Source: Deltaproteobacteria bacterium (GTDB taxonomy: Bacteria > Desulfobacterota > Syntrophia > Syntrophales > JAFGIO01). Taken from it: a stretch of 48,085 bases of DNA. The notes under the pieces were generated by a model. That model did no database searches and was not told the origin of the DNA. It saw only the letters and a list, made by a program, of their open reading frames with translations. Positions 1 to 25,068 of the stretch are shown in pieces. The stretch covers positions 1 to 48,085 of the forward strand of contig JAFGIO010000069.1 of assembly GCA_016929555.1 (NCBI GenBank), read 5' to 3'. Each line of letters starts with the position of its first letter. Within the stretch, counting starts at the first letter, position 1. A program made the translations under genes and the position numbers.

Positions 1-981
1 AATGTTAATCATATCGAAAGAGTTTATGTCCAAGCCGCCAAGTGGATCAGGGATAGAACCTCTCCATCGGAACGGATTGCAGCTTTCGATATCGGCATCC
101 TAAAGTATATCTCGAACCGCCGAATCCTCGACTTGGGGGGGCTGGTAGATCCGAAGGTCCATCCCTCATTGGTGCGTCGCGATTGCGGTGAATATTTGCA
201 GCGATATGATGCCGACTATATTCTTTATTCGCGCTTTCCCGATTGCGATTTTATGACCGGAATTTATCTTTCCGAGTACGGCAAGAAAAATCTACTGAAA
301 CAAAAACGGATAGCTGCATTCAGCACCGATTATTTTGTGACTCCCACGATCGTGCAATCGTTTCAGCTCGACATCTTTCGAATCGAAGCCTGGCTAAGGC
401 GGAATCCCGAGGGGATAAGAGAGCAGTTCACGGCAGAGGAAGCCCGCTGCGATTTTCCGGTGCATCAGGTTTATCGGGGAGAGGTTGAACTTTTGGGATA
501 TGACCTTGACCGGCCCGATTTAGAGGTGGTGAAGGGCGTGCCCCAAGCGGTCAATCTTACTTTTTATTGGCGCAAGGTCGTCTCTTCAAACAACAAATAT
601 TTCGTAAGAACAACCCTTTCCAATCCGGCAACCCGCCAGGTGATTATGGAGAAATATCATTTACCCACCCATGACATCTATCCCATGCCTCTCTGGAACT
701 GCCAGGAAATCGTGAAAGAGCATCACTTGATCTGGGTGCCCGACGCAGCGGCGCCGGGCACATACGACATCAGGGTCGGCCTAGTGAGCGCTGATGAATT
801 ACCGGATGCCAAGAAAAATGCCAAGGGCGTATTTTCGTTCCTGAAAGAACTCTTCGGTATGGATTTCGCCATCTTCCCTGTAGATGAAAGCGTGGGCCAA
901 GATGCCCTTGTCGGCAAGTTCAGGATTCGATCATCGGTTCTGGAACCGATCCGGTTTTTAAACAAGGGCTCCGAGTGGTAG
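1..981 (+). CDS. Membrane glycosyltransferase (GT39/ArnT-like), C-terminal part
   Basis: The frame is open from base 1, so this is the 3' part of a larger gene; the listed TTG start at 133 is internal. The first visible residues (ERVYVQAAKWIRDRT, then FDIGILKYISNRRILDLGGL) match the periplasmic region that follows the membrane helices in GT39-type polyprenyl-phosphate-sugar glycosyltransferases. The rest is a soluble beta-rich tail (LLGYDL near ORF residue 118, later APGTYDIRVGL) often found on such proteins. The catalytic N-terminal helices lie outside the window, so donor and acceptor cannot be inferred. It is convergent with the UbiA-family gene, 89 bases away, with no obvious terminator between them. 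Confidence 0.75.
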   Translation, partial: NVNHIERVYVQAAKWIRDRTSPSERIAAFDIGILKYISNRRILDLGGLVDPKVHPSLVRRDCGEYLQRYDADYILYSRFPDCDFMTGIYLSEYGKKNLLKQKRIAAFSTDYFVTPTIVQSFQLDIFRIEAWLRRNPEGIREQFTAEEARCDFPVHQVYRGEVELLGYDLDRPDLEVVKGVPQAVNLTFYWRKVVSSNNKYFVRTTLSNPATRQVIMEKYHLPTHDIYPMPLWNCQEIVKEHHLIWVPDAAAPGTYDIRVGLVSADELPDAKKNAKGVFSFLKELFGMDFAIFPVDESVGQDALVGKFRIRSSVLEPIRFLNKGSEW

Positions 982-1070
982 AAACAGAATGAATGCGAAC
1001 CTTCCCGTATTTCTCAGCGAACCCTTCACCTTGATACGACCCCTATCGTTGCTCAAATGTCTTTTGACGA

Positions 1071-1937
1071 TCACATATAGATCAAGAAAGCAAAGGAAAT
1101 AATCCAGCCTGCAATAGACATTTGGATAAAGGGATCCTTCATGAGAATCTCCGCTGGACTGCCGCTATTTTCTTCCAGCATGGCAATCTGAAGATAGCGC
1201 ATCACGCCTGTTAGGACGAAAATGGAAGTGATGTAGAGCTTGTCGGTCTTGAACTTGGCGATGATTTCGGGTGAAACGGTGTACATGAGATAGGCAACCA
1301 AAACCACCGCCGCCATGATCATCATGGAGGCGTCAATAAAGCGAAGATTATAGCCATCGATGGATTTACGGGGCCTGTGATTCTTTTCCAGAAAGATGAG
1401 CACATCATCCCGCCTTTTTCCAAGCGACAGAAAAAGCGCCAGCAGGAACGTCATGATCACGATCCACATGTAGACCGGAACACCCCCCACCGCGCCGCCC
1501 ACGAAAATCCGGATAACGAAACACGCGGCGACGATCATGACATCCAAAATCGGCACATGTTTTAACTTCACGCTGTAAGCCAGATTCAGGGATATGTAGA
1601 GTAGGCACAGGTAAAACATCTGTATAGAAAGGACATAGGCCAGGGATAACCCAAACACAAGGAGGCATGCCATCAACCCAATGGCCGATCCCTTCGTTAT
1701 CCTTCCTGCCGGAAGGGGGCGGTATTTCTTTTTCGGATGCTGGCTGTCCTCAATGAGGTCGTGAAGATCGTTGAAGATATAGACTGCGCTGGCCAATAAG
1801 CAAAAACCAAGGAAAGCAAGAGATACCTTGAACAACCGTTCGGGTTCTTGCAGACGCAGGGCAAAGAACAAAGGAAGGAAGATAAATAGATTCTTCGTGT
1901 ACTGGGGAAGGCGGATAAGGGCGATATAGTCTTTCAT
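1071..1937 (-). CDS. UbiA-family prenyltransferase, like decaprenyl-phosphate phosphoribosyltransferase
   Basis: This integral membrane protein of 288 residues has about eight hydrophobic segments. The first Asp-rich motif is NDLHDLIEDSQHPKKKYRP (about residues 56-74). The HP-K-RP extension is typical of the branch that transfers phosphoribose from PRPP to polyprenyl phosphate (DPPR synthase, Rv3806c-like) rather than quinone prenyltransferases. A second polar segment follows in the middle of the protein (GYNLRFIDASMM). The expected product is polyprenyl-phosphoryl-ribose-5-phosphate, a precursor of lipid-linked pentose donors. Its ATG overlaps the TGA of the small upstream ORF (ATGA), and an epimerase lies just beyond, so the three are probably one transcript. 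Family assignment is firm and the substrate is inferred. Confidence 0.85.
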   Translation of the reverse strand: MKDYIALIRLPQYTKNLFIFLPLFFALRLQEPERLFKVSLAFLGFCLLASAVYIFNDLHDLIEDSQHPKKKYRPLPAGRITKGSAIGLMACLLVFGLSLAYVLSIQMFYLCLLYISLNLAYSVKLKHVPILDVMIVAACFVIRIFVGGAVGGVPVYMWIVIMTFLLALFLSLGKRRDDVLIFLEKNHRPRKSIDGYNLRFIDASMMIMAAVVLVAYLMYTVSPEIIAKFKTDKLYITSIFVLTGVMRYLQIAMLEENSGSPAEILMKDPFIQMSIAGWIISFAFLIYM

Positions 1938-2107
1938 GTCCGGAAGGCGAGCCTTTTCAATAATATCGATAACGAGGAAGATCGAAAAACCTCATCCCAA
2001 TTGCTGATGGATGCGTTGATAATGACAATGTGAGGACCCTTCCGGGGGTAACACTTCCATCTATCAAGGATGTCATCGAAATCGAAGTGTGCTGTTTTCT
2101 CCTGCAT
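1934..2107 (-). CDS. Small ORF of 57 residues between epimerase and UbiA-family gene
   Basis: This ORF is too short for the supplied track. It reads ATG to TGA on the minus strand: MQEKTAHFDFDDILDRWK at the start and LLKRLAFRT at the end. It begins 2 bases after the epimerase stop (TAATCATG) and its TGA overlaps the next ATG (ATGA), a coupled arrangement typical of real operon genes. There is no clear Shine-Dalgarno, so translation would depend on coupling. There is no signal peptide or membrane segment. I do not recognise the sequence. It could be a small partner of the prenyltransferase or the remnant of a larger gene. Confidence 0.4.
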   Translation of the reverse strand: MQEKTAHFDFDDILDRWKCYPRKGPHIVIINASISNWDEVFRSSSLSILLKRLAFRT

Positions 2108-2109
2108 GA

Positions 2110-3150
2110 TTAAAAAAAGATCTTGGCAAATTGCAGGATGCCCTGTTTCCAGGGTACACGATGTGATATCCCGGATTGGCCCTTTATCTTATCAATGTTT
2201 TCAAGATACCATCTGAAATTGCGAACGAGCGCATCCTGATTGGAAAATTTAGGCCTGTACCCGAGAACGTTTTCTGCTTTTTCTATGGAGACAAAGGAAT
2301 CTTTCGATGCCGTTTCATAAACCCACTTGTACAGCGGTGAGAGTTTCAGGGATTCCAGAATTCTGAGGACCAGTACTACAGGCGCAGCGGGAAAGGGGAC
2401 TATCTTTTTTCCATACCCTGCGTAATCGAGGACGGCTTGGTAGTCCTCCCCCATCGTCTTGAATTCCTTGGCGCCGATGTTGAAAGTATCGTTTACCTTC
2501 TCTCTTTCCAAGGTCATGCAGAGAAATATTGCTTCACAAAGATCTTCGACATCGAGGAGTTGATAACGATTCTTTCCGTTGCCGATCATGGGAAAGCCGC
2601 GGCCGTCTCTTGCCCAATCGAAAAATAGGGCAAATACCCCCAGTCTTTCCGGACCGACAAAGGATTTTGGCCGTAAAATAGGAATACACATCCCCTTGCA
2701 GCGATACTCCAAACAGGCCTCTTCCGCCATGATTTTCGCCTTTCCGTAAGGGCCTACGCCGTCTAAATTATCGTCTTCGCAAAGCGGGTGATGATCCGGA
2801 ATACCGTAAACGGCCGTCGACGAGATGTAAATAAATCTCTCTACGTGACCTTGGTATGAGGCTTCCAAAAGGTTTTTGGTGCCATTAACAACCGTTGTGA
2901 ATAGGGTTTCCTCCGTGTAGAGAGGCAGTGCGGATGCGGTATGAATGACTGTATCGACACCTTTCAAGATCTCAGGGATTTTAATTTCATCCCTGATATC
3001 GCATTTTACAAAGGTGATTTTGGATGAGGCATCCGGATAGTCGAAATCGGCAATATCAAGGACAACCATATCGAAACGACTCTTTTTCAGGAGATACCGG
3101 ACAAGATTGATACCGAGAAATCCGGAACCGCCGGTGATTAGAACCCTCAA
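2110..3150 (-). CDS. NAD-dependent epimerase/dehydratase (extended SDR)
   Basis: This protein of 346 residues has the nucleotide-binding motif GGSGFLG at residues 7-13 and the catalytic YGKAK (YxxxK) with an upstream SS(T)AVYG segment. These define an extended short-chain dehydrogenase acting on nucleotide sugars or related substrates in the cytoplasm. The start is TTG at 3150, chosen because GGAGGAG sits 5 bases upstream and the Rossmann motif follows at once. The next genes are the 57-residue ORF and the UbiA-family enzyme, so it may supply or modify the sugar of a lipid-linked donor. The substrate cannot be read from sequence. Confidence 0.8.
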   Translation of the reverse strand: MRVLITGGSGFLGINLVRYLLKKSRFDMVVLDIADFDYPDASSKITFVKCDIRDEIKIPEILKGVDTVIHTASALPLYTEETLFTTVVNGTKNLLEASYQGHVERFIYISSTAVYGIPDHHPLCEDDNLDGVGPYGKAKIMAEEACLEYRCKGMCIPILRPKSFVGPERLGVFALFFDWARDGRGFPMIGNGKNRYQLLDVEDLCEAIFLCMTLEREKVNDTFNIGAKEFKTMGEDYQAVLDYAGYGKKIVPFPAAPVVLVLRILESLKLSPLYKWVYETASKDSFVSIEKAENVLGYRPKFSNQDALVRNFRWYLENIDKIKGQSGISHRVPWKQGILQFAKIFF

Positions 3151-3691
3151 ATTTTCTCCTCCACCCTGATCCTAGGCATCATAAACTTTCCATAATCACT
3201 GCGTCGAGCAAACCGGCCTCTTCCGAGACCTCACCTCGGGTTGACGGTTTTTCCCTCTGTTTACCGAATCGTTTCACGGTAGTGACGCGGCAGCTCGAAA
3301 ATCGCCCCCGCAATCTTGCATGGTTTGTGAAATCAGTCAATAGCGATTCTCGCAGCCAGATCAGCGCCTTATCACGGGGCAACTTCTCTTGGGCTACTCA
3401 GGAGGGGAGTGCCGTTCGTTCAGCAACTTGTGGAAATGCGGGTGTCTTCTGTGCTATCTTCATATCAGCGGTTGGGGGGAAAGCACCGGCCGTTGCGCGG
3501 TCGCAGTTCTAGGTACTCATCATGATGGTACCGCACCTGTAAATGCTCGATGTCAGCGAGTGTATCCATCCCGTTGATCGGATCATGCCGCCGGATTCAA
3601 CTCCACCACCGGAAACAGAGGCTGGCCATGCTGCGGGTAACGTGATGTTGCATCGTTGTCGGGATCAAAGAACCTAACTGCATACTAAAGA
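3151..3691. other. Intergenic stretch with no supported gene
   Basis: These 541 bases separate the divergent epimerase genes. Short ORFs exist on both strands (up to 76 residues), but none has a plausible ribosome binding site, recognisable motif or protein-like composition. I saw no tRNA, no convincing promoter and no long repeat. It could be an eroded gene or a scar, which I cannot show. Confidence 0.5.
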
Positions 3692-4789
3692 ATGAACGAC
3701 ATGCAATCTCACTCGCCGTCGGCCAATCACGCCTCTCTTCTCTTTGTTCACAATTCACAATCCAATATCTCCCTGAAGGGTTATCCTTTGACATCGACCG
3801 CCGATGCCGGCACGACGTCCGCAACGAAGTGCCACAGGATCCTGCTCACCGGGGCCGGCGGCTGTCTCGGAGGTTACCTCCTCGAGGAGTTCATGAATGA
3901 AAGCCCAGAGCATCTGGTTCTCCTGCTGCGTGATCCCGATAAAATCCGGATCGGTTCCACCTGGCGGGAGCGGCTGACGATCATCAGGGGGGATCTCAAC
4001 GAACTCGATCCTGTGCTGCCCCAGATTGAAAACATCGACCAGGCTGTATTGGCAGCCGCCTGTTGGGGGGGGTCGGAAACCTTTCCGGTCAATGTCATGG
4101 CCAATCTCAGACTGACCATCCATCTCGCCGCCCGGGGCTGCTGCCGCATCATCTATCTGTCCACGGCCAGCGTTCTGGATCGTGAAGGCAACCTTCTTCC
4201 GGCAGCCAGGGATCTCGGCTCGGAATACATCAGATCCAAGTACAGACTGGTCGAAGTCATGGAGAACCTGGAATTCCTTCAAAAAACAGAAATCATAGGC
4301 CTTTTCCCCACCCTGATCCTCGGCGGCGGGCCGGGCAAACCCTATTCCCACTTTGCCCGGCTCTTACAGCGGACCTTGCCTTGGGCCTGGCTGTGGCCTT
4401 TCTTGCGGGCCGAGGGCGCCTTTCACTTCATTCACGGTCTGGACATCGCCCGAATCGTACGCCACCTGACAGAGTCACCCCTCGCACCTGCCGAATCACC
4501 CCGGCGCATCGTGCTCGGCAACCCCGTCCTGAGCGTCAATGAATTTATCGGCGAATTCTCCGCTTATCTGGGTAAAAAGGCGTTTTTCCAGGTCAACCTG
4601 AAATCCTGTCTGATTGAAGCACTGATCAAAATCTTCCGCATCCGGCTTTCGCCCTGGGATCGTTACTGCCTGGAAAAACGCGACCTTTCTTTCCAGAACG
4701 CGGTCAACCCGTCCGCCTTCGGTCTGCCGGTTTATTGTCCGAATCCGGCCGCCGGTTTGGCCGCTATCGACATCAAGGCCGAACAATGA
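3692..4789 (+). CDS. NAD-dependent epimerase/dehydratase family protein
   Basis: This extended-SDR protein has 365 residues. The Rossmann motif is TGAGGCLGG near residue 53, and the catalytic tetrad region gives YLSTASV followed by YIRSK (YxxxK). The first 45 residues before the beta-strand RILLTGAGG are low in structure, and no strong Shine-Dalgarno precedes the ATG at 3692, so the true start may be further in. It is the only plus-strand gene between two minus-strand envelope clusters. A nucleotide-sugar or lipid-linked-sugar role is likely from context. The substrate is unknown. Confidence 0.75.
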   Translation: MNDMQSHSPSANHASLLFVHNSQSNISLKGYPLTSTADAGTTSATKCHRILLTGAGGCLGGYLLEEFMNESPEHLVLLLRDPDKIRIGSTWRERLTIIRGDLNELDPVLPQIENIDQAVLAAACWGGSETFPVNVMANLRLTIHLAARGCCRIIYLSTASVLDREGNLLPAARDLGSEYIRSKYRLVEVMENLEFLQKTEIIGLFPTLILGGGPGKPYSHFARLLQRTLPWAWLWPFLRAEGAFHFIHGLDIARIVRHLTESPLAPAESPRRIVLGNPVLSVNEFIGEFSAYLGKKAFFQVNLKSCLIEALIKIFRIRLSPWDRYCLEKRDLSFQNAVNPSAFGLPVYCPNPAAGLAAIDIKAEQ

Positions 4790-4942
4790 CATTAAAGATC
4801 AAGCGGGTCAACAAGCCCCAACAAATCGGCAATGACCGCATTCCCCCTTCTGCCAACTCCCATACCTTTCGGATAATAAACCCCCCAAAGCCTTTTTGTT
4901 TTCACCTCCAGCCAGAAATGGATCCCCGTGGAAAAAGATCGT

Positions 4943-6730
4943 TCAGTCCGGTACAGGGGGGAGCGGTTCTTTTGTTGGTCGACGGAAATGCCTTATCAAA
5001 TAACCATCCACTGCTTTCGTTTTCTGTTCCATCGGAAGAAAACCAAATCTTCTCATTAAGTTCGGTAAACCCGGATCCAGCACGTCAAAATTAAGCGCCC
5101 AGAAATCTAAAGGCCCGTCCATTGTTTTCAGAATCCTTTTGAATTCCGAATAATCCGGAAGATCGTCCTTGACACCCGTAACCAGCAGATAACGTGGTGG
5201 ACAATCCATATTGCCCCGGGTTCGCTCCTTTTCAAGGGCCCAAGCCAGTGACTGCAACTCGGCGACCTGACACCAGGTGTGACGATGGCCGACTGCAACG
5301 ACTATTGGCGCCCGAGACACGGTACCGATTATCCGGGCCACAATGTCGGGTTGCTGGCTTTTTGAGTAACCGAAATCGAGAGCCACAGTAAAGCCTCCCA
5401 GCAACCCCATCAGACCGATCAGCGCCATTTGCCTTCTTAGCCCTGCAGCCGACATTGATGGGTTTTCCACCCAGGAAGCGATCGCACCTGAAGCCCAAAG
5501 CAAGACCACTGGGAAAAAAAAGAAACCATAGCGCAAAGCTGCGGTTAAAAACCTGCCGGTCAGATAAGTGATTCCAAGTAAAATGAGCAGACTAAACATC
5601 AAAATCCAGAGCAATACAGAACCCGTTCTTCTCCGGGAATCGTCACCGGCGAGCCGGGCATAGCCCCGTCGAAAGAAGAGGACCGTCCAGAGAAAAAACG
5701 GAAATACCAGCAAGAAGGACAGCACCGGTATCCAGGGTGGCACGTTCTGCACCGGGAGTAAAAAGAAAAAGGTTATTAAGATGGCCATCAGTTCGGGAAT
5801 GGGATCGATAAAATAATGCCAGTCCGATAGAGTTCGTTGCAGCCATCGTGACATTTCGTGGCCGGGCAGAGCAGCCAGAACCGGTACGAGGGGTGCCAGG
5901 ACCATCAGGGTCACACCGGCATAAATGATCATTCTCAGGCGTACCTGCCGCGTCCAGGGCTGACCGTTCCGATGGTTGATAACCGCGTCGACCATCAGGG
6001 CCGTGACTTGGGCGAACAGGGCCAGGATGTGAAAGTAATGGGTCGCCAGCCCCAGGGCATTGCTCGTCATCCAGGCGGCAAAGAGCCAGACCGGGGGAGT
6101 CCGCCCGGCGCGCAGGCGACGCAGGGCAATCAGGAAGAAACCCAGTGAAAAAGCGATCCATATGACCGCCAGGTAATACATCCGTGTTTCCTGAAAAAGA
6201 TAGACACCAAAAGGAGATACGGCCATGAACCAAGCCGCGGCCAAAGCCGCCCAAGGGGAATGAAAGGACACCCAACCCAGCCAGGCCATAACGGCGACGG
6301 CAATGATCCCCATCGCGGCTCCCAGCGAACGCATCTGCCGGGCGCTGACGTATTCGTTTTCATCGGGAGCGAATACCTTAAGCCATAGGTTCAGGATGCC
6401 AAAATGCAGAGGCGGATGAACATCCTCGGCTACAACCGTGGCAATGACATCCAAAAATCCGGTCGTAGATCCCCCGCGCATTGGGGTCATCAAACGCTGA
6501 AAATCAATGGTCTCATTGACCGGAATAGCGCTAAAACCACGGCCCTGGGCCAGGCCGAGTGTGCCGAATTCATCGGTCCACAATGGCTTCCCCCCCAGAT
6601 TTAAAAAACGCAGGCCGCAGGCGAGAAAGATGCAAAGCAGCAGAAACAGTCCGTGTTTCCATACCGGCTTCGTTCGATCACCAACTGTCTCGGCTGAGGG
6701 ATCTTTCTTTCTTTGCATCATGAGGGGCAT
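4943..6730 (-). CDS. Membrane glycosyltransferase, GT39/PMT family (ArnT-like)
   Basis: This predicted inner-membrane glycosyltransferase has about eleven hydrophobic helices and a soluble C-terminal part. The catalytic loop motif LWTDEFGTL follows the first helix and contains the D-E pair typical of GT39/PMT_2 enzymes. HPPLHFGILNLWLKV and QETRMYYL are also family-typical. Such enzymes take sugar from a polyprenyl-phosphate donor and add it to a lipid or glycan on the periplasmic side. The track starts at 6847, but that overlaps the upstream GT2 gene by 98 bases. I prefer the ATG at 6730, which gives 595 residues and begins MPLMMQRKK, 19 bases after the GT2 stop. It is last in the eight-gene cluster. 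Donor and acceptor are unknown. Confidence 0.85.
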   Translation of the reverse strand: MPLMMQRKKDPSAETVGDRTKPVWKHGLFLLLCIFLACGLRFLNLGGKPLWTDEFGTLGLAQGRGFSAIPVNETIDFQRLMTPMRGGSTTGFLDVIATVVAEDVHPPLHFGILNLWLKVFAPDENEYVSARQMRSLGAAMGIIAVAVMAWLGWVSFHSPWAALAAAWFMAVSPFGVYLFQETRMYYLAVIWIAFSLGFFLIALRRLRAGRTPPVWLFAAWMTSNALGLATHYFHILALFAQVTALMVDAVINHRNGQPWTRQVRLRMIIYAGVTLMVLAPLVPVLAALPGHEMSRWLQRTLSDWHYFIDPIPELMAILITFFFLLPVQNVPPWIPVLSFLLVFPFFLWTVLFFRRGYARLAGDDSRRRTGSVLLWILMFSLLILLGITYLTGRFLTAALRYGFFFFPVVLLWASGAIASWVENPSMSAAGLRRQMALIGLMGLLGGFTVALDFGYSKSQQPDIVARIIGTVSRAPIVVAVGHRHTWCQVAELQSLAWALEKERTRGNMDCPPRYLLVTGVKDDLPDYSEFKRILKTMDGPLDFWALNFDVLDPGLPNLMRRFGFLPMEQKTKAVDGYLIRHFRRPTKEPLPPVPD

Positions 6731-6749
6731 ACCGAATTTTCCAGAAAAG

Positions 6750-7712
6750 TCAAGAATAACGGCTGGATCGGGTTTTTTCCGCCAGATCCCGTCTCCTCTC
6801 CGGACCGAGATCCTGCCAGACACGACGTCCCGCTGAGACTTCGACATGGTTTAACAGCAGCCATTTCCAGAAAGCGGAAGGCGGTTCCAAGCCGCTCTCC
6901 CGGGCTCTGTTTAGACGGGTTTCGAGTCCCAGCAAGCGGTCGAGAATGGCATCTATCCGCCTGATCGTGGCCAGTTGTTTGGTCTGCAGACCGACCGCCA
7001 GTTGCGGATGCTTGGCGTAAAAGAGCGCTCCATTGGCCCCGCGGCTTTCTTCACGGCGGCAATTTAGAAAGAAATCACGCCGGACCGAATCGGGCTTGTA
7101 GTGATAGATCGGTGCCCGCCAGTCATAGTACCGGCGCGTTCCCATCCCGGCCAGACGGAAATAGAGTTCGGGATCTCCCCAGCCATAGCATTGGAAATCC
7201 TCATCGAAACCGCCTGCGGCAACAACGAGTTGCCTTTCGACCGACGCATTGCCGGTAGGGAACGGATTGAAATGTCGCCCAAGGAGCATTCCACTGGTTG
7301 GATATCGTTCTTCCGGAGGCTTGCTCACTTCGACGATCGGCCCGCTGACGACCGCCCGTCGATGGCGTGCATGAACGGCCAGATGCCTCTCGAGAAAATC
7401 GGGACGTACCAGGGAATCATCATCAACGAAAACGAGCACCCGGCCTTCAGCCAGCGTTAAAGCGAGATTTCGGGCCGCCGGTGCACTGGAGCGCTTTTCC
7501 AGGCGGCAATAGATGAGATTGGGAGCACTGAACGCCCGCACAACCCGGGCCGTGTCGTCCTGCGAAGCGTCATCGACAACGACGATCTGGTAATCTCCAG
7601 CGGCCACGGTCTGATCCAGAAAGCGCGGCAGCGAGAGCCGCAGCACATCGGCACGATTGCGGGTCGGCAATATCAGGCTGGCGCCAATTCTGTCTCTTCC
7701 TGCTCTCTGCAT
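6750..7712 (-). CDS. GT2-family glycosyltransferase
   Basis: This protein of 320 residues begins with the GT-A fold strand ASLILPTRNRADVL. It has VVVDDASQDDT and the metal-binding FVDDDS, then a second-domain pattern GGFDEDFQCYGWGDPEL that resembles the Glyco_transf_7C/GT27-like segment. It is an inverting nucleotide-sugar-dependent transferase, expected at the cytoplasmic face. Its first 40 bases overlap the 3' end of the ABC exporter gene. No later start keeps the first beta strand, so the overlap is probably real. The sugar is unknown. Confidence 0.85.
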   Translation of the reverse strand: MQRAGRDRIGASLILPTRNRADVLRLSLPRFLDQTVAAGDYQIVVVDDASQDDTARVVRAFSAPNLIYCRLEKRSSAPAARNLALTLAEGRVLVFVDDDSLVRPDFLERHLAVHARHRRAVVSGPIVEVSKPPEERYPTSGMLLGRHFNPFPTGNASVERQLVVAAGGFDEDFQCYGWGDPELYFRLAGMGTRRYYDWRAPIYHYKPDSVRRDFFLNCRREESRGANGALFYAKHPQLAVGLQTKQLATIRRIDAILDRLLGLETRLNRARESGLEPPSAFWKWLLLNHVEVSAGRRVWQDLGPERRRDLAEKTRSSRYS

Positions 7713-9430
7713 AATTGCTCACGGTACAGCCGGTAATACAATCCGCCCGATTGATAAAGCTCCCGGTGACTTCCCTCTTCGACAATACGGCCGGCATCGA
7801 TTACCACAATACGGTCGACAGCGTGCACCGTTGCCAGGCGATGAGCGACGATCAGGGCGGTGCGGCCCTGCCAGGCACGCTGCAGGGCCTCGCGCACCAG
7901 ACGTTCCGATTCGGCGTCGAGAGCCGAGGTCGGTTCGTCCAGCAGCAGAATGCGCGGATCCCGCAAAAAAATCCGCGCAATGGCGATGCGCTGGCGTTGT
8001 CCCACCGAAAGGTTGGCCCCGCGCGGCTCGATGCGGGCCAGGTAGCCGTCCAATAATTTGTCTGCGAATTCAGCAACGTGGGCCGCTTCAGCCGCCCGGC
8101 GTACTTCCTCCAGGGAAGCCTCCGGCGCACCGAAACGCAGGTTATCCAGAAGGGTGCCGGCAAAAATGATCGGCTCCTGGTAAACTTCGCCGATCACCTG
8201 GCGGAGATCCCTCAGTTTCAAATCGGAGACATCCAAGCCATCAACCAGCAAAGTGCCGGAATCGGGAACGAGAAAACGGGGAATGAAATCGAGAATGGTC
8301 GACTTACCGCCGCCGCTCGGTCCGACCAAGGCCACTTTTTCGCCGGCCGAAATTCGCATGCTGAAATGCCTCATCGAAAAATTACTGCCCGGGTAAGAGA
8401 AGTTGATCCCGTCGAATTCTATCTCGCCCCGGGCCAACTCCGGAGACAGTCTCTTCCGGCCTTCTTTCTCCGGCGGAAGCAAGTGAATGCGGTTGAATCG
8501 ATCCATGACCGCGAAAAGCTGCATCAGCCTGCCCATGGAATGGCTTGCCTCCTGCGCCGGTGAGTAAGCCAGAGCGGCGCATGCCATAAACGATGTCAGG
8601 ACTTCCAGGGTAATGATTCCCTGTTGCAGAAACAGCGCGCTCAGAAAGATAAGAACGGTGATTCCGGCCCCGGCGGCCAGGGTTACAGCCACGGGATGGA
8701 AGGCGTCCATTTTTTCATAATCCAGTTGCACCCGCAGAGCCTCGGCGTTGAGGGCGTCGAAACGAACAGCTACATCCGACTCCCGGTTGCAGGACTTGAT
8801 CTCCTTCAATCCGCCGAGCATTTCCGTCACTTCGGCGACCAATGTGGCGAGCTGTTCCTGGGTACTGTGAGAAACCCCGTGGAGCTTGCGACCGAAATAC
8901 GAAGTGACCAGGACCAAGGGACTGATCAGCACCATAGCACAGAGAAAGAGCGGCCAGGTGTACCAGGCCATGGCTGCACCGAACACCACCAGCAGGATCA
9001 GCGCCGGAGCAAAAACGGAGACGACCCGGGTAAGTGCCTCCTGGAAAACCTGCAGGTCATTGGAAAAGCTGGAAACCAGTTCTCCTCCTCCGGCATCCGC
9101 CGCAGTGCGTGGTGAAACACCAAGGATATGGCGGAAAAGACGGATCCGGGTTGTACTGGTTATCTTCTGGCTTAAACTGATCATCAGATAGGTTCTGCCG
9201 AATGAAAAAAGCGCCCCTGCCGTGAAGAGGACCAGACCCAATGCCAAATGACGGGCCAGAACAGCTATGTCGAGACCGGGAAAGACCACGGCTACCAAAT
9301 GCCCTGCCCATACCGGTATGAGCAGGAAAAGTCCGGCAGAGACTGCGGTACAGAAAATGGCCCCGGCGAAGGCGGTCCGGTGCGACCACAACTCCCGCCA
9401 AAGCCACCCAAGGTGTCTTGAAGTGTTCAT
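7673..9430 (-). CDS. MsbA-type lipid/glycolipid ABC exporter, fused TMD-NBD
   Basis: This half-transporter has 585 residues and would work as a homodimer. Residues 1-310 hold six membrane helices, and the nucleotide-binding domain follows. Walker A is GPSGGGKST (about 370), the signature is LSVGQ (about 475, a variant of LSGGQ), Walker B is ILLLDEPTSALD and the H-loop is IVAHRLAT. The fold and length match MsbA and other lipid flippases. The gene lies between glycosyltransferases, and its ATG immediately follows the TAA of the LpxB-like gene. The likely job is flipping the glycolipid built by the neighbours across the inner membrane. The substrate is inferred from context only. Confidence 0.88.
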   Translation of the reverse strand: MNTSRHLGWLWRELWSHRTAFAGAIFCTAVSAGLFLLIPVWAGHLVAVVFPGLDIAVLARHLALGLVLFTAGALFSFGRTYLMISLSQKITSTTRIRLFRHILGVSPRTAADAGGGELVSSFSNDLQVFQEALTRVVSVFAPALILLVVFGAAMAWYTWPLFLCAMVLISPLVLVTSYFGRKLHGVSHSTQEQLATLVAEVTEMLGGLKEIKSCNRESDVAVRFDALNAEALRVQLDYEKMDAFHPVAVTLAAGAGITVLIFLSALFLQQGIITLEVLTSFMACAALAYSPAQEASHSMGRLMQLFAVMDRFNRIHLLPPEKEGRKRLSPELARGEIEFDGINFSYPGSNFSMRHFSMRISAGEKVALVGPSGGGKSTILDFIPRFLVPDSGTLLVDGLDVSDLKLRDLRQVIGEVYQEPIIFAGTLLDNLRFGAPEASLEEVRRAAEAAHVAEFADKLLDGYLARIEPRGANLSVGQRQRIAIARIFLRDPRILLLDEPTSALDAESERLVREALQRAWQGRTALIVAHRLATVHAVDRIVVIDAGRIVEEGSHRELYQSGGLYYRLYREQLCREQEETELAPA

Positions 9431-10663
9431 TTACGCATTGTCCCCGGCCAGGAAGTCCTGCAGTTCCGTGACCAGGCGGCCGGTCGCCCCGGGGGGGCCC
9501 ATGACGGCCCGCAGTTTGTCCTCGAGAGGACGTAGATCGGAATCAAGCATGGTTCTGACGAGGTCGACAACCTGACCGGTCCTGATATGACCGACCAGTT
9601 CCGGCACCACCATGCTTCTAATCCGTCGGTTGGGGTGGGCGGCATAACCGATGCTCCGATAGATCAGGTGGCCGACGGCACGCTTGATATATTTGCCGAT
9701 AAAAGGGATGCGGTCCACATGACCGGTAAGGCCCGGCCAAGGAATCAGTTCCGACTTCCAGGAAGGAATGGTGATAATCATCGGTACACCGAGGGCCGCC
9801 AGTTCGGCCGTATTGGAGCCAGGCAGGGTCAGAACGAGCTTAGCCCTCGCGGCAACCGCACCGTGCGGCAGGATCTCGATCCTGATTCCGGTCGGTGTGA
9901 CCACGTATTCCCGCCCGGCTTCAGTCAGCCAGGACAGGTTGACGCCCTCTATCCGACGGCCGTCATTGACATCCGGAATATCCCTTAAAAAATCGCCCGC
10001 CAGGAAATCCGATTTGGCCAACAGCCATTCGATATCAGTACGGCAGGTTTTGAGTTTTTCGGCCACCGCGGCGTAAAAGGGCAGTACGAACTTTACCAGG
10101 TAATCGCGACTGCCGGGATAGAGGCCGACAGTGTTCAGGCCCGACCGGGCCGGGAGACGCCCACGGCAATGCATCATTGCGGCATCGATCATCATGTCGC
10201 CGATGATTCTTTTGCCGTTGCTTTTCGCGACCCTTGAGTCGGCCCAAATCCCCGAATAAAAAACAGCAGCGAAAAAGGTCTCCATAGGAATTGGCTTCTC
10301 GACATAAGCCAGGCAGGGCTGCCCCAGCCTCCTGGCGAGCAACAGGGTCAGGACGCTGTCACCGCCAAGGTGAAGGACGAAGCCCGAACCATTCCTGTGA
10401 AAACCTGGAGGCAGGCGGTTGCGAAACACCAGGGACATGGTTTCTTTGGCCGTGCAAACTGCGTCGATCTCGGTCTGAGATCTGATCAGATCGTACTCCA
10501 GGCCGGTCGAGTAAACGCAGGGTACCACAGCCACACAGATACGAATCAAGGGCTGGCGCTTTCTCAATTCACTCACCAGGGGCTGGAGCCATCCGGCTAC
10601 TTCACCCGGACCGTTCACGGTAATTGTAACCTGGGGCAATGCCGTAGAGTTTCTCCTTTTCAT
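9431..10663 (-). CDS. LpxB-like glycosyltransferase (lipid-A-disaccharide synthase-like), second paralogue
   Basis: The protein opens with a beta strand and a glycine-rich turn, VTITVNGPGEVAGW, typical of GT19/LpxB-like GT-B glycosyltransferases. The C-terminal half has LPGSNTAELAALGVPMI, the usual nucleotide-sugar/phosphate-binding segment. As I recall the families, cyanobacteria carry a protein with the same NGPGE opening beside a true LpxB. I chose the ATG at 10663 (410 residues) rather than 10708, because 10708 overlaps the GNAT gene by 37 bases while 10663 lies 8 bases after its stop. The stop abuts the exporter start. It probably adds a sugar to a lipid acceptor. Identity with LpxB is not claimed. 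Confidence 0.75.
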   Translation of the reverse strand: MKRRNSTALPQVTITVNGPGEVAGWLQPLVSELRKRQPLIRICVAVVPCVYSTGLEYDLIRSQTEIDAVCTAKETMSLVFRNRLPPGFHRNGSGFVLHLGGDSVLTLLLARRLGQPCLAYVEKPIPMETFFAAVFYSGIWADSRVAKSNGKRIIGDMMIDAAMMHCRGRLPARSGLNTVGLYPGSRDYLVKFVLPFYAAVAEKLKTCRTDIEWLLAKSDFLAGDFLRDIPDVNDGRRIEGVNLSWLTEAGREYVVTPTGIRIEILPHGAVAARAKLVLTLPGSNTAELAALGVPMIITIPSWKSELIPWPGLTGHVDRIPFIGKYIKRAVGHLIYRSIGYAAHPNRRIRSMVVPELVGHIRTGQVVDLVRTMLDSDLRPLEDKLRAVMGPPGATGRLVTELQDFLAGDNA

Positions 10664-20490: not shown

Positions 20491-22389
20491 TCAGCTCTCC
20501 AGTTCGAACCCCCTTCGATAACTCCCCAGCAGCTTGAGAAATTCGGTCTTTTCTTTCAACTCCTCCAGAAGATGCCGGTGTTCCTCTGCATAGATATCGA
20601 TTTCCACGTCTGCATAGAAAAGATACTCCCAGGGCTTGCCTGTGCGGGGACGGGATTCCAGCTTGACCAGGTTGATGTTCTTTTCTGCGAAAATCTTGAG
20701 CGTTGCGTACAAAGATCCCGGTTTGTTGCCGACGGAATAGATCAGGGACGATTTGTTGTTGGGACCGTCCAGGAAAGGCTCCCGGGAGATCACGACGAAG
20801 CGGTCGAAATTCCGCGGGTTGGTTTCGATGCCCTCCTTGAGCACCGTCATCCGAAACAACCCTGCCATATCCTTGCCGGCGATCGCCGCTTCGCGTGGAT
20901 CATTGCTGTCCCGGACCCTGCGGAGGGCTGTCGCGGAATCCTGAACCGCCACCAAGTCCCATTGAGAATTCCGGGACAGAAATTCCTTGCATTGCTGAAA
21001 GACCTCGGGATGGGCATAGACCTTTTGAATCTCTGCGACGGCTGCACCTGCAAATCCGATCAGGTTGTGCACGCTTCGGAGGGTCAGCTCGCCCACAATC
21101 CGCAGATCGTACTCCAAAAGCAGGTCATAATTTTCATGAAAACTCCCCGACAAGCTGTTTTCCACAGGAATGATTCCCAAGGCTCCGTCTTCGTTCTGCA
21201 CGGCGTCGAAAATTTCCCGATAGGAAGCGACAGACCGGCTGGGAACGTCCGTGCCGAAGAACTGCTCGCAGGCCTTGTGGCTGAAAGGACCTGAAGGGCC
21301 CGTATAGACGATCCTGTGAGCATGCCTGGAATCTCCCTCGCGGGGTTTCATGACGGCCGCCTTTTCCAGGTAGGTGTAGTCCAGTTGCTTGCCGACGACG
21401 GGAGCGATCACATACAGGTCGCGCATGAGCTGCTCGAACTGCTCGGGATAGAGACTCTGGGGGCCGTCGGAGAGCGCCTTGTCCGGTTCCGTGTGCACTT
21501 CGATGATGAGGCCGTCGGCTCCCGCGGCGATGGAGGCGCGGGCCATGGGGCTGACCTTTTCGCGGATGCCCGTCGCATGGCTCGGGTCGACGATAATGGG
21601 AAGGTGTGTGAGCTCTTTGATGACGGGAATGGCCGTAAGATCGAGGGTATTTCGGGTATACCTCTCGAAGGTGCGGATGCCGCGCTCACACAGGATGACC
21701 CGATCATTCCCTTCGGAAAGGATGTATTCGGCGGACATGAGCCATTCCTCGATGGTGGCCGAAAGACCCCGCTTCAGAAGGACGGGCTTGCCGATGCGCC
21801 CCACGCATTTGAGAAGCTCGAAATTCTGCATGTTGCGCGCTCCGATCTGCACCACATCCACATACTTCATCATCAGATCGGCCTGCCCGGTCGATGTCAT
21901 TTCGGTAACGATCCCCAGTCCCGTTTCCTCCCGCACCTCGGCGAGAATTCTGAGGCCGTCCTCTCCCAGACCCTGAAAGGAGTATGGGGACGTGCGGGGC
22001 TTGAAGGCGCCGCCCCGGAAGAGCACCGCCCCGTGACGGCGCACCACCCTGGCGATTTCCAGGGTCCGTTTCCGATCCTCCACGCCGCACGGACCGGCAA
22101 TGACCACCAGACGGTCGCCGCCGATGAACACATCCCCGACTTTGATAACCGAGGGAGTCGGATGCATCTCCCGGCTCACCAGTTTGTACTCCTTGGAGAC
22201 AGGGAGAACCTTGGCGACCCCGGGCAGGGTTTCAAAGTAACGGATATCCTTCTTGATTGTTCCCACCACACCCAGAATGACTTCTTCAACGCCCTCGATC
22301 TCTTTGATGATGTAGTTTTCCGAACGGAGCAAATCCATCAGTCCTTCTTTTTCCTTGGGGCCAAGCCCCCGCTTCAAAACGAGTATCAC
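20491..22389 (-). CDS. Bifunctional DAHP synthase / prephenate dehydratase with ACT domain
   Basis: The N-terminal 70 residues form a small regulatory ferredoxin-like domain. The DAHP synthase (AroF type I-beta) domain follows: VVIAGPCGVED, GGAFKPRTSPYSFQGLG, IGARNMQNF and VDPSHATG. A prephenate dehydratase domain starts near residue 360 (VYTGPSGPFSHKA, PVENSLSGSFHENYDLL), and a C-terminal ACT domain (KPGSLYATLK, KLESRPRTG) gives Phe feedback binding. It would couple the first step of the aromatic pathway to phenylalanine synthesis. The family's catalytic TRF motif reads DRF here (NPRNFDRFVVIS). The track start at 22467 runs through the attenuator hairpin; the likely start is GTG at 22389 after AGGGGGGG, giving 632 residues. 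Regulation is by the upstream attenuator. Confidence 0.9.
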   Translation of the reverse strand: MILVLKRGLGPKEKEGLMDLLRSENYIIKEIEGVEEVILGVVGTIKKDIRYFETLPGVAKVLPVSKEYKLVSREMHPTPSVIKVGDVFIGGDRLVVIAGPCGVEDRKRTLEIARVVRRHGAVLFRGGAFKPRTSPYSFQGLGEDGLRILAEVREETGLGIVTEMTSTGQADLMMKYVDVVQIGARNMQNFELLKCVGRIGKPVLLKRGLSATIEEWLMSAEYILSEGNDRVILCERGIRTFERYTRNTLDLTAIPVIKELTHLPIIVDPSHATGIREKVSPMARASIAAGADGLIIEVHTEPDKALSDGPQSLYPEQFEQLMRDLYVIAPVVGKQLDYTYLEKAAVMKPREGDSRHAHRIVYTGPSGPFSHKACEQFFGTDVPSRSVASYREIFDAVQNEDGALGIIPVENSLSGSFHENYDLLLEYDLRIVGELTLRSVHNLIGFAGAAVAEIQKVYAHPEVFQQCKEFLSRNSQWDLVAVQDSATALRRVRDSNDPREAAIAGKDMAGLFRMTVLKEGIETNPRNFDRFVVISREPFLDGPNNKSSLIYSVGNKPGSLYATLKIFAEKNINLVKLESRPRTGKPWEYLFYADVEIDIYAEEHRHLLEELKEKTEFLKLLGSYRRGFELES

Positions 22390-22412: not shown

Positions 22413-22453
22413 TAAAAAACAAAAAACCCCAAGGGGATTTCCTCGGGGTTTTT
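22413..22453 (-). terminator. Intrinsic terminator of the phenylalanine attenuator
   Basis: On the minus strand AAAACCCCGAGG pairs with CCTTGGGGTTTT (one G-T pair), followed by GTTTTTT, a classical rho-independent terminator. It lies in the leader, 24 bases upstream of the aroF-pheA GTG start. The left arm can instead pair with the upstream hairpin's right arm, so it is expected to be conditional. Confidence 0.85.
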
Positions 22454-22465
22454 CGATGGGTCCTC

Positions 22466-22493
22466 ACCCCGGGCGGCTTCCTGACCGCCCGGG
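22466..22493 (-). promoter_or_regulatory. Attenuator upstream hairpin (segments B and C)
   Basis: On the minus strand CCCGGGCGG and CCGCCCGGG form a perfect 9-base-pair stem with loop TCAGGAAG. The right arm continues GGT, giving CGGGGT, which can pair with ACCCCG of the terminator's left arm. The left arm CCGGGCGG can pair over 8 bases with CCGCCTGG at the end of the leader peptide ORF. This gives mutually exclusive structures. Confidence 0.75.
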
Positions 22494-22514
22494 AGCGTTT
22501 TTCAATGCGCTCAG

Positions 22515-22616
22515 CTATCCAGGCGGACAGGTTCGAAAAGCAAAAAAGCTAAAAAAGCCTTTGCCCTGCTCAAAACCGTTTCCCGATATCCTGCCGGGAC
22601 TGATTGCTGTATGCAT
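22515..22616 (-). CDS. Phenylalanine-rich leader peptide of aroF-pheA
   Basis: This ORF of 33 residues is too short for the track. It starts ATG at 22616 after AAGGAAGAAT and ends TAG. The peptide is MHTAISPGRISGNGF, then EQGKGFFSFFAFRTCPPG. Six of its 33 residues are Phe, and five of those fall within residues 21-27. This mirrors the enterobacterial PheL leader, whose stalling on Phe codons controls a downstream terminator. Ordered segments of alternative pairing begin inside its last codons. The gene controlled is the fused aroF-pheA just downstream. Confidence 0.85.
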   Translation of the reverse strand: MHTAISPGRISGNGFEQGKGFFSFFAFRTCPPG

Positions 22617-22685
22617 ATTCTTCCTTGACATCACTCTGAAAGACATTGTCCTTCACAGGGATCCATTCTTTCAATCTACGGCATA

Positions 22686-22714
22686 CCCATAAATGCCTTT
22701 TGGGATATTGTCAA
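22686..22714 (-). promoter_or_regulatory. Sigma-70 promoter for the pheA leader and aroF-pheA
   Basis: TTGACA (22709-22714) and TATGGG (22686-22691) are 17 bases apart on the minus strand. It would start transcription near 22680, giving a leader of about 290 bases that includes the peptide ORF and terminator. Confidence 0.7.
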
Positions 22715-23100: not shown

Positions 23101-25068
23101 ATGGCTTCGGATTCATCGACAAAAAGAGAGATAAGCTGCAGGATTACCCGCACGTTGATCATGTATGTCCGGGAGACGCACGGTTCGCTCGGGAATCTCC
23201 TGGAAGGACTGGATCTGAGCGAGGCCTATCTCCTCGATACGAACAACTGGGTTTCCCATGAATTATTGCATATCCTCTACGCGCGGATGATCGACATTCT
23301 CGGGGACAACCACAGCGTATATAAAATGACGTTGGCGGCCAAACGCTTCCAATCCCTGGGACTTCTGGATTGGATCGCACGATTGCTGGGAAACCCGAAG
23401 CTGATCTATGCCCAGGCGCCGAAGTACAACAGACTTCTCAAGGCCAATGGGGATGTCTACATCCACGAGTTGGGGGATTCCTGGGTGGTTTTGGAAGACC
23501 GGTATCACGACAGCGCCCAGAAAACCCGTTACGACTGCGACTACACACGGGGGGTTCTTGCAGGCATCCCGACCCTATTCGATATGCCCTTCGCACAGGT
23601 CGAAGAGATCGAATGCCAGGTCGCACACGAGGTATACGGCGAGAGGATCTGGCCGGACGCACCCGTGTACGGTGCCAGAGGATGCCTTTACCGGATCCGG
23701 TGGGATCCCAAAGACCTCCCGCCGGTATGGAAACGTCTATTTCAGCGGTACAGCGTCTATCGAAAGGCCATCGATAATCTTCAGGAGGCCAACCGGGTGA
23801 TCCAGGAAAAATACGATGAGGTAAAAAGACTGGCGCTCGAGTTGGAAACGGCCAACCGGCATCTCACCGAATCGAAGCGGCAATTGGAGAATTACACGGC
23901 CGAACTGCATGCTTCGGAACGCCGCTACCGACTTCTGGCGGAAAACGTGACGGATACGATCTGGGTGTTGAGTCTTGATACACTGCATTTCACCTATGTC
24001 AGCCCTTCCGTCAAGCGTCAGCGCGGCTATTCGGTGGAAGAGGCCATGGCGTTACCCCTGGAAAAAACGGTAACGGCTGAATCTCTCGAACAAGTTTTAG
24101 CGGTACTCGAAGAAGAACTCGTCCGGGAGAACACGGGAAATGCCGACCCGAACCGATCGAGAACCATCGAAGTTCAGCAGTACCATAAAGACGGATCGAG
24201 CAGTTGGGCCGAGGTCACGACATCCTTTTTGCGGGACGATGAGGGCAAGGCCGAGGGTGTGTTGGGGGTCACTCGCGACGCCTCGGAGAGGAAGCGGGCC
24301 GAACAGCTTTACCAGGCGAAAATAGCGGCGGAAGCGTCGAACGCGGCGAAGAGCGCCTTCCTTTCCCGAATGAGCCACGAGCTCCGAACCCCCCTGAACC
24401 ATATCATGGGTTTTACCGAATTGATCCTGGATAAACATTGCGGCGATCTAAACGAAACACAGGAAGAGTATCTGGAAGACGTGTATCGCAGCAGCCAGCA
24501 TTTGCTCGCCCTGGTCAACGAGATCCTGGATGTCTCAAAAATCGAGGCCGGCAAACTCGAATTAAAACCGACTTCTGTAAATTTGAAGCTGCTGCTCGAA
24601 CAGAGCCTGTCCATCGTCATGGACAAGGCAATGCAGCGAAAGATCCATCTGCATGCGAAAATCGGGGACGTTCCCGACGCCATAACCGCAGATGAGCTCA
24701 GGCTGAAGCAGATCTTGTACAACCTGCTGTCCAACGCCGTAAAGTTTACCGAAGACGGCGGAAATGTCACCCTCGAAGCCCGGTTGTCCGCAAGCTCCAG
24801 GGAGGGAAACCGAATAGAGGCCGAACCCGCGGGCGACGCGTTGCAGATCGATGTCATCGATACGGGCATCGGCATTCGACAGGAAGATCTGGCAAAAATT
24901 TTCGAGCCGTTCTCCCAGTTGGAAAGTCCCCTAAGCCGCAGGTATCCCGGAAGCGGATTGGGCCTATGGCTCACGAGAAACCTTGTCGAAATGCACGGGG
25001 GCAGGATATGGGCGGAGAGCGAGGGCCCCGGCAAGGGTGCCGTATTTCGGTTTACCCTGCCTTTTTAG
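23101..25068 (+). CDS. Orphan sensor histidine kinase with N-terminal sensor domain and PAS
   Basis: This kinase has 655 residues and is cytoplasmic, with no membrane helices. Residues 1-220 form a globular sensor region ending in DYTRGVLAGIPTLF and GARGCLYRIRW, a pattern reminiscent of V4R-like domains (tentative). A coiled-coil linker (about 220-270) and a PAS domain (YRLLAENVTDTIWVLS, about 275-400) follow. The HisKA phosphorylation site is FLSRMSHELRTPLNH. The ATPase domain shows the N box NLLSNAVKFT, DTGIGI and GSGLGLWL. There is no receiver domain, and no response-regulator gene is adjacent, so its partner is elsewhere. The signal is unknown. The Shine-Dalgarno is weak (AGGG). Confidence 0.88.
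   Translation: MASDSSTKREISCRITRTLIMYVRETHGSLGNLLEGLDLSEAYLLDTNNWVSHELLHILYARMIDILGDNHSVYKMTLAAKRFQSLGLLDWIARLLGNPKLIYAQAPKYNRLLKANGDVYIHELGDSWVVLEDRYHDSAQKTRYDCDYTRGVLAGIPTLFDMPFAQVEEIECQVAHEVYGERIWPDAPVYGARGCLYRIRWDPKDLPPVWKRLFQRYSVYRKAIDNLQEANRVIQEKYDEVKRLALELETANRHLTESKRQLENYTAELHASERRYRLLAENVTDTIWVLSLDTLHFTYVSPSVKRQRGYSVEEAMALPLEKTVTAESLEQVLAVLEEELVRENTGNADPNRSRTIEVQQYHKDGSSSWAEVTTSFLRDDEGKAEGVLGVTRDASERKRAEQLYQAKIAAEASNAAKSAFLSRMSHELRTPLNHIMGFTELILDKHCGDLNETQEEYLEDVYRSSQHLLALVNEILDVSKIEAGKLELKPTSVNLKLLLEQSLSIVMDKAMQRKIHLHAKIGDVPDAITADELRLKQILYNLLSNAVKFTEDGGNVTLEARLSASSREGNRIEAEPAGDALQIDVIDTGIGIRQEDLAKIFEPFSQLESPLSRRYPGSGLGLWLTRNLVEMHGGRIWAESEGPGKGAVFRFTLPF

Follow-up and report, generated by a model that had tools for sequence, protein, structure and literature searches.

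The DNA analyzed here (the window) is a 48,085-nucleotide stretch of a deltaproteobacterial genome of the order Syntrophales. On its minus strand, positions 20491 to 22389 encode a fusion of DAHP synthase with prephenate dehydratase (aroF-pheA), identified by its domain matches: a ferredoxin-like FXD domain and DAHP_synth_1 are followed by the prephenate dehydratase and ACT domains. One gene therefore combines the initial step of the aromatic pathway with a committed step to phenylalanine. Its start is likely the GTG codon at 22389, which is preceded by GGGGGGG and coincides with the residue at which the homologues of the fused gene begin. The upstream neighbor, a sensor-kinase-like gene at 23101-25068 on the plus strand, is transcribed divergently, so the terminator described below does not belong to it.

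Anatomy of the leader

The region ahead of aroF-pheA contains, all on the minus strand, a promoter at 22686-22714 that consists of TTGACA (22714-22709), a 17-nt spacer, and TATGGG (22691-22686). The -10 element is weak, with 3 of 6 consensus matches; the TTGACA-N17 layout, however, is found in all 17 fused-gene relatives tested, and 82% of the relatives reach a promoter score of at least 9 of 12, compared to 10% of shuffled sequences. Downstream, the ribosome-binding site (RBS) AAGGAAG (22620-22626) precedes a short open reading frame (ORF) of 33 codons (22515-22616) that is predicted to be translated into MHTAISPGRISGNGFEQGKGFFSFFAFRTCPPG and is retained in the relatives. It includes the run FFSFFAF (22536-22556) with five Phe codons, i.e., codons for the amino acid that the controlled gene helps to produce, and the spacing of this run to the first pairing segment is kept in the family. 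An intrinsic terminator lies between the leader ORF and the gene.

Five RNA segments can be distinguished. Segment 1, CCGCCTGG (22519-22526), lies in the end of the leader ORF; segment 2, CCCGGGCGG (22485-22493), can pair with either segment 1 or segment 3; segment 3, CCGCCCGGGGT (22466-22476), can pair with segment 2 or, through its CGGGGT, with segment 4; segment 4 (22441-22455) is the 5' arm of the terminator and includes ACCCCG; and segment 5 (22414-22434) combines the 3' arm of the terminator (22434-22420) with the U-tract T6GT6 (22426-22414). The original prediction, made from this DNA alone, had named the promoter, the leader ORF with its RBS, the segments, and the terminator, as well as three competing helices of 8, 9, and 6 bp, and direct reading of the sequence places every one of these elements where it had been put. 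The segments pair exactly: CCGCCTGG (22526-22519) with CCGGGCGG (22492-22485) in helix 1:2, which runs into a mismatch when extended past 8 bp; CCCGGGCGG (22493-22485) with CCGCCCGGG (22476-22468) in the 9-bp GC hairpin 2:3; CGGGGT (22471-22466) with ACCCCG (22449-22444) in helix 3:4, which spans no more than 6 bp in the window; and the 15 pairs of the terminator stem 4:5 (22455-22441/22434-22420), followed by T6GT6. The terminator and antiterminator folds are mutually exclusive. An additional hairpin around the Phe codons, 0:1, reaches only -6.7 kcal/mol in the window and, being weak there, is not claimed as a part of its leader.

Conservation of the leader and its alternative helices

Relatives of the fused gene were drawn from the order of the window, from its phylum, and from GTDB genomes. 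The fusion is encoded in only 3 of the 155 genomes of the order; the scan of GTDB genomes detected it in Syntrophobacteraceae, Desulfomonile, and Desulfobacterales, as well as in Spirochaetes. The absence of a Phe-rich ORF or of the alternative pairings in such relatives would have argued against the original prediction. The search for it found instead a leader peptide at all 22 other Desulfobacterota-type fusion loci with enough upstream DNA, Phe-rich in 21 of them and often reading GRFFFFFRSVHP, and the same segments. The exception, L046, has a leader with FF and WWW. Locus L006 is cut off. A leader peptide was looked for and not found at two more distant fusion loci, L053 and L054, and no Phe-run leader was seen upstream of the spirochaete homologues. 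Loci of aroF-pheA fusions that lack this leader are widespread among Spirochaetes and a small number of other phyla (L055, L057-L108, and L110-L113, mostly Spirochaetes). In the protein tree, the window copy and those of two members of its order form a single clade that adjoins Syntrophobacteraceae; this position, together with the rarity of the fusion in the order, suggests that the fused gene and its leader were acquired together.

The structure alignment included 37 leaders from different gene classes, which aligned well. An unguided all-against-all scan of its columns yielded only four long helices, 1:2, 2:3, 3:4, and 4:5, with strong compensatory change, the remaining signal being a single 5-bp variant of 1:2. 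In the two helices assigned to starvation, 1:2 and 3:4, 94.7% of the positions were paired, and there were 98 double-changed cells, compared to 25.8 after shuffling (0/500); for the two helices assigned to sufficiency, 2:3 and 4:5, the respective numbers of double-changed cells were 120 and 39.7 (0/500). The second covariance model of the family, R2, leaves out most of the codon run and is limited in structure to 2:3 and 4:5. The two helices that are absent from this model were nevertheless recovered in 100 R2-aligned leaders: helix 1:2 was paired in 93%, with 135 double changes versus 17, and helix 3:4 was paired in 88%, with 75 versus 26. Exchange of segments between species weakened the pairing in 1:2, 2:3, 3:4, 4:5, and 0:1, so that the pairing within species was better, and had no effect on the negative-control pairs 1:3 and 0:2.

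In Desulfobacterales, the fused-gene loci (L040-L052, L056, and L063) have a strong 0:1 hairpin, GGACGCTTC...GAAGCGTCC, that surrounds the Phe codons and extends into segment 1, and its arms covary (p=1e-4). By analogy with the first hairpin of the his leader, it may serve to ensure termination of transcripts whose leader is not translated.

Of 100 family members, 79 have a U-tract after hairpin 2:3, which makes this hairpin a terminator itself in most relatives, a feature that had not been part of the original prediction. Such leaders contain two serial terminators, T1 (2:3) and T2 (4:5), both of which are blocked by the starvation fold. Tandem terminators are found in 13 of 25 leaders of fused genes. 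The window copy represents the single-terminator form with T2 only: unlike in most of the family, its segment 3 is not followed by a U-tract (1 T in 9 positions).

The same helices could in principle control translation initiation of the fused gene or the stability of its RNA, rather than transcription termination. Attenuators that hide an RBS do exist (PMC9413887), and the RBS of the fused gene lies only about 20 nt past the terminator. However, this RBS and the start codon (22400-22387) are outside the switching helices, and 98 of 100 members have a U-tract after the 4:5 hairpin, which makes control at either of these levels very improbable.

The geometry of the leaders is likewise constrained. 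The last aromatic codon is located exactly 6 nt 5' of segment 1 in 63 of 98 leaders, and from segment 1 to the end of the stop codon the distance is about 10 nt (median over leaders). With this spacing, a ribosome stalled early in the codon run can be expected to leave segment 1 free, and one that has reached the stop codon would cover it.

The anatomy, conservation, covariation, geometry, and codon-gene match (see below) allow the likely sequence of events to be predicted. Transcription would start near 22680, and a ribosome would translate the 33-codon leader. When charged tRNA-Phe is in short supply, the ribosome would stall at the Phe codons (22556-22536) and leave segment 1 free; helix 1:2 could then form, segment 3 would capture segment 4 in helix 3:4, and terminator 4:5 would be prevented, so that RNA polymerase would read on into the fused gene. 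When Phe is ample, the ribosome at the stop codon would cover segment 1, and formation of 2:3 and then of terminator 4:5 would stop transcription. This position-dependent logic, put forward in the original prediction, appears to be supported by the conservation of its helices in relatives, as judged from covariation, segment swaps, and modeled folding.

Folding of the leader with the ribosome footprint blocked, which had been proposed as a check, agreed with the switch at one stage of synthesis and did not discriminate at another. In the window leader before segment 5 is made, a ribosome on the Phe codons gave probabilities of 0.49 for helix 1:2 and 0.33 for helix 3:4, and a ribosome at the stop codon gave 0 for both; across 89 members, the same folding produced a clear shift toward 3:4 in 38 and the opposite shift in 1. 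For the full leader at equilibrium, the terminator was favored whatever the state of the ribosome, and the states were not discriminated. Given that equilibrium favors the terminator in every state and that only 38 of 89 members shift clearly, the switch would have to be kinetic, with the order of synthesis deciding the outcome. Taken together, the evidence makes it very probable that this leader attenuates transcription through a translating ribosome, with charged tRNA-Phe as the sensed signal and the fused aroF-pheA gene as the target.

Distribution of the scaffold and its codon runs

The first covariance model was built from 23 leaders and searched against the order and the phylum; besides the fused gene, it matched other genes with other leaders. 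R2 matches were found in 152 of 155 genomes of the order and in 236 of 395 sampled in the phylum, compared to 0 of 20 genomes from other phyla; an empty result of this kind says little without a positive control, a role filled here by the matches in the order. In 91.5% of the family leaders (n=118), the last 24 residues include at least 5 aromatic ones, compared to 2.0% of 307 control placements, each figure being based on the most aromatic ORF at the respective place.

The type of codon tracks the type of gene in the 118 loci and in all 8 copies in the window's own genome, with gene products checked by protein family. Averaged over the last 24 leader residues, Phe counts were 5.9 for aroF-pheA fusions and also 5.9 for substrate-binding proteins of the LIV type; aminotransferase leaders had 5.6 Phe and 2.3 Tyr. 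Mixed runs precede genes for DAHP synthase (2.4 Phe, 3.2 Tyr, and 1.8 Trp) and for ADH synthase, the entry enzyme of the alternative aromatic route (3.4 Phe, 4.3 Tyr, and 0.9 Trp). The trpE leaders averaged 3.5 Trp, and leaders of a second substrate-binding protein averaged 4.7 Tyr. By gene, Trp runs are found for trpE and trpB, Leu runs for leuA, and Val/Leu runs for acetolactate synthase.

The window leader is only one of eight on the common scaffold in its own genome, which goes beyond the original prediction, and every one of these R2 matches has a fitting leader. Besides the Phe leader of the fusion (FFSFFAF), they include FFAFYGFF in front of a transporter operon (L217, G000:C71:1-14500, leader at 285-423, operon at about 418-8629); the Phe+Tyr+Trp leader WSSFSFWFRYYY (L218, G000:C224:20000-34411, minus strand, about 10504-10647); a WWWW leader of trpE; a Val/Leu run before acetolactate synthase (L254, C162); WWW before a TrpB-like gene (L255, C108); a Leu run before leuA (L256, C252); and WWW before trpB (L257, C95). 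The two weakest matches have E values of only 1e-4 and 4e-4, so they rest on the agreement between leader and gene. The Val/Leu and Leu leaders on the same scaffold extend the family past aromatic amino acids.

Could the leader region simply contain ordinary, perhaps bidirectional, intergenic terminators next to a Phe-rich ORF that is a chance T-rich frame? In favor of this, hairpins rich in GC and followed by U-tracts are widespread, and weak antisense matches to the model are also obtained with the scaffold. However, the divergent upstream neighbor leaves nothing to terminate on the minus strand, helices 1:2 and 3:4 covary, and the leaders fit the amino acid of the gene, including runs of Trp, Tyr, Leu, and Val that are no T-rich homopolymers; such a coincidence is extremely improbable.

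A leader bound by a tRNA (in the manner of T-boxes), a protein, or a metabolite, and hence sensing Phe without translation, would typically also have alternative terminator and antiterminator folds. When the window and 40 loci were scanned against Rfam 15, however, no family was matched at its gathering score, be it T-box or riboswitch, and the T-box covariance model gave no match there. Moreover, the conserved, translated codon run keeps a constant spacing to segment 1 and varies with the gene on an otherwise unchanged scaffold. The probability of this alternative is close to nil.

The conserved letters, with the consensus GCCNTGGG and its partners, make shared ancestry of the copies, rather than convergence, the likely explanation of their sequence similarity. 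There is good reason to regard the family as one phylum-wide homologous scaffold of five segments, usually with tandem terminators, that has been repeatedly respecified by its codon run alone, forming an amino-acid regulon that spans the genome and is able to travel with its genes. The specificities would then comprise Phe; Tyr; Trp; Phe+Tyr; Phe+Tyr+Trp; Leu; and Val/Leu. If, as appears, one scaffold has been recoded for many amino acids throughout this phylum of anaerobes, the way in which regulatory specificity evolves can be tested directly; the family also illustrates how tandem terminators can be governed by one leader peptide.

The leaders also yield functional predictions for poorly annotated genes. 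The L217 operon encodes a LIV-type ABC transporter, a FadD-like ligase, and a PaaK-like ligase (phenylacetate-CoA ligase family, below the equivalog cutoff); its Phe leader suggests, as a guess, that this transporter and its acyl-CoA ligases take up and activate an aromatic acid to supply Phe. The L218 cluster contains an unfused second aroF, aroB, and a chorismate mutase-prephenate dehydratase gene. Its leader being of the Phe+Tyr+Trp type, the genome holds two sets of DAHP synthase and prephenate dehydratase under different attenuators. Tyr-rich leaders, GYYYYGYLRRS, precede a LIV-type substrate-binding protein at three loci (L270, L292, and L309), which suggests a Tyr-linked transporter. 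A Trp-rich leader is found before a protein of the Phenol_MetA_deg family (L180, G091:C21), and leaders of aromatic type are found at L310 and L312 ahead of proteins that match no Pfam family; the genes at these three loci are candidate additions to the known aromatic amino acid genes.

Comparison with known attenuators

Attenuation by leader peptides, a textbook mechanism, has been known chiefly from enterobacteria, whose operons each have a distinct leader. Like the window leader, the Escherichia coli pheA attenuator has a leader peptide with Phe codons in front of a prephenate dehydratase gene; unlike it, with its four segments, the window scaffold has five and the target is the aroF-pheA fusion. 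The Rfam model Phe_leader (RF01859) did not match the window or its own genome in a search that finds the E. coli leader. In the ilvGMEDA and ilvBN leaders, several kinds of regulatory codons occur in one peptide, which thus senses several end products, as would the Phe+Tyr+Trp leaders; the latter, however, control entry enzymes of the aromatic pathway. The DAHP synthases of E. coli are under TyrR/TrpR control.

The best near-match of the window in Rfam is His_leader (RF00514), at 28.1 bits versus a gathering score of 49. Both in the his attenuator of Salmonella and E. coli and in the window leader, the folds form two chains of mutually exclusive helices. In the his attenuator, the codon region is separated from the terminator by an extra hairpin (PMC1183508), and the single-terminator form in the window resembles it in having such a hairpin ahead of its terminator. 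In contrast to the his attenuator, the window leader contains Phe rather than His codons and controls an aromatic gene, and in most of its relatives this extra hairpin doubles as a terminator.

In the same broad group of bacteria, an attenuator has been predicted for the aroA'-aroB'-pheA-aroF-tyrA-trp supraoperon of Desulfovibrio vulgaris (PMC1173090, Table 7, Merino database). Its first gene, aroA', encodes an ADH synthase, a class also found here behind the scaffold; the entry, as far as the table goes, states no leader peptide, family, or codon logic. A study of delta-proteobacterial regulation (PMC545781) names no attenuator of the leader-peptide type for aromatic genes, and in the open-access literature the tabulated D. 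vulgaris prediction is the one related report found in this phylum. By analogy, the mechanism would be classical and work like the enterobacterial his and phe attenuators. Apparently new, within Rfam and open-access text, are the phylum-wide scaffold, its recoding for multiple amino acids, the tri-aromatic leaders of entry enzymes, and the tandem terminators.
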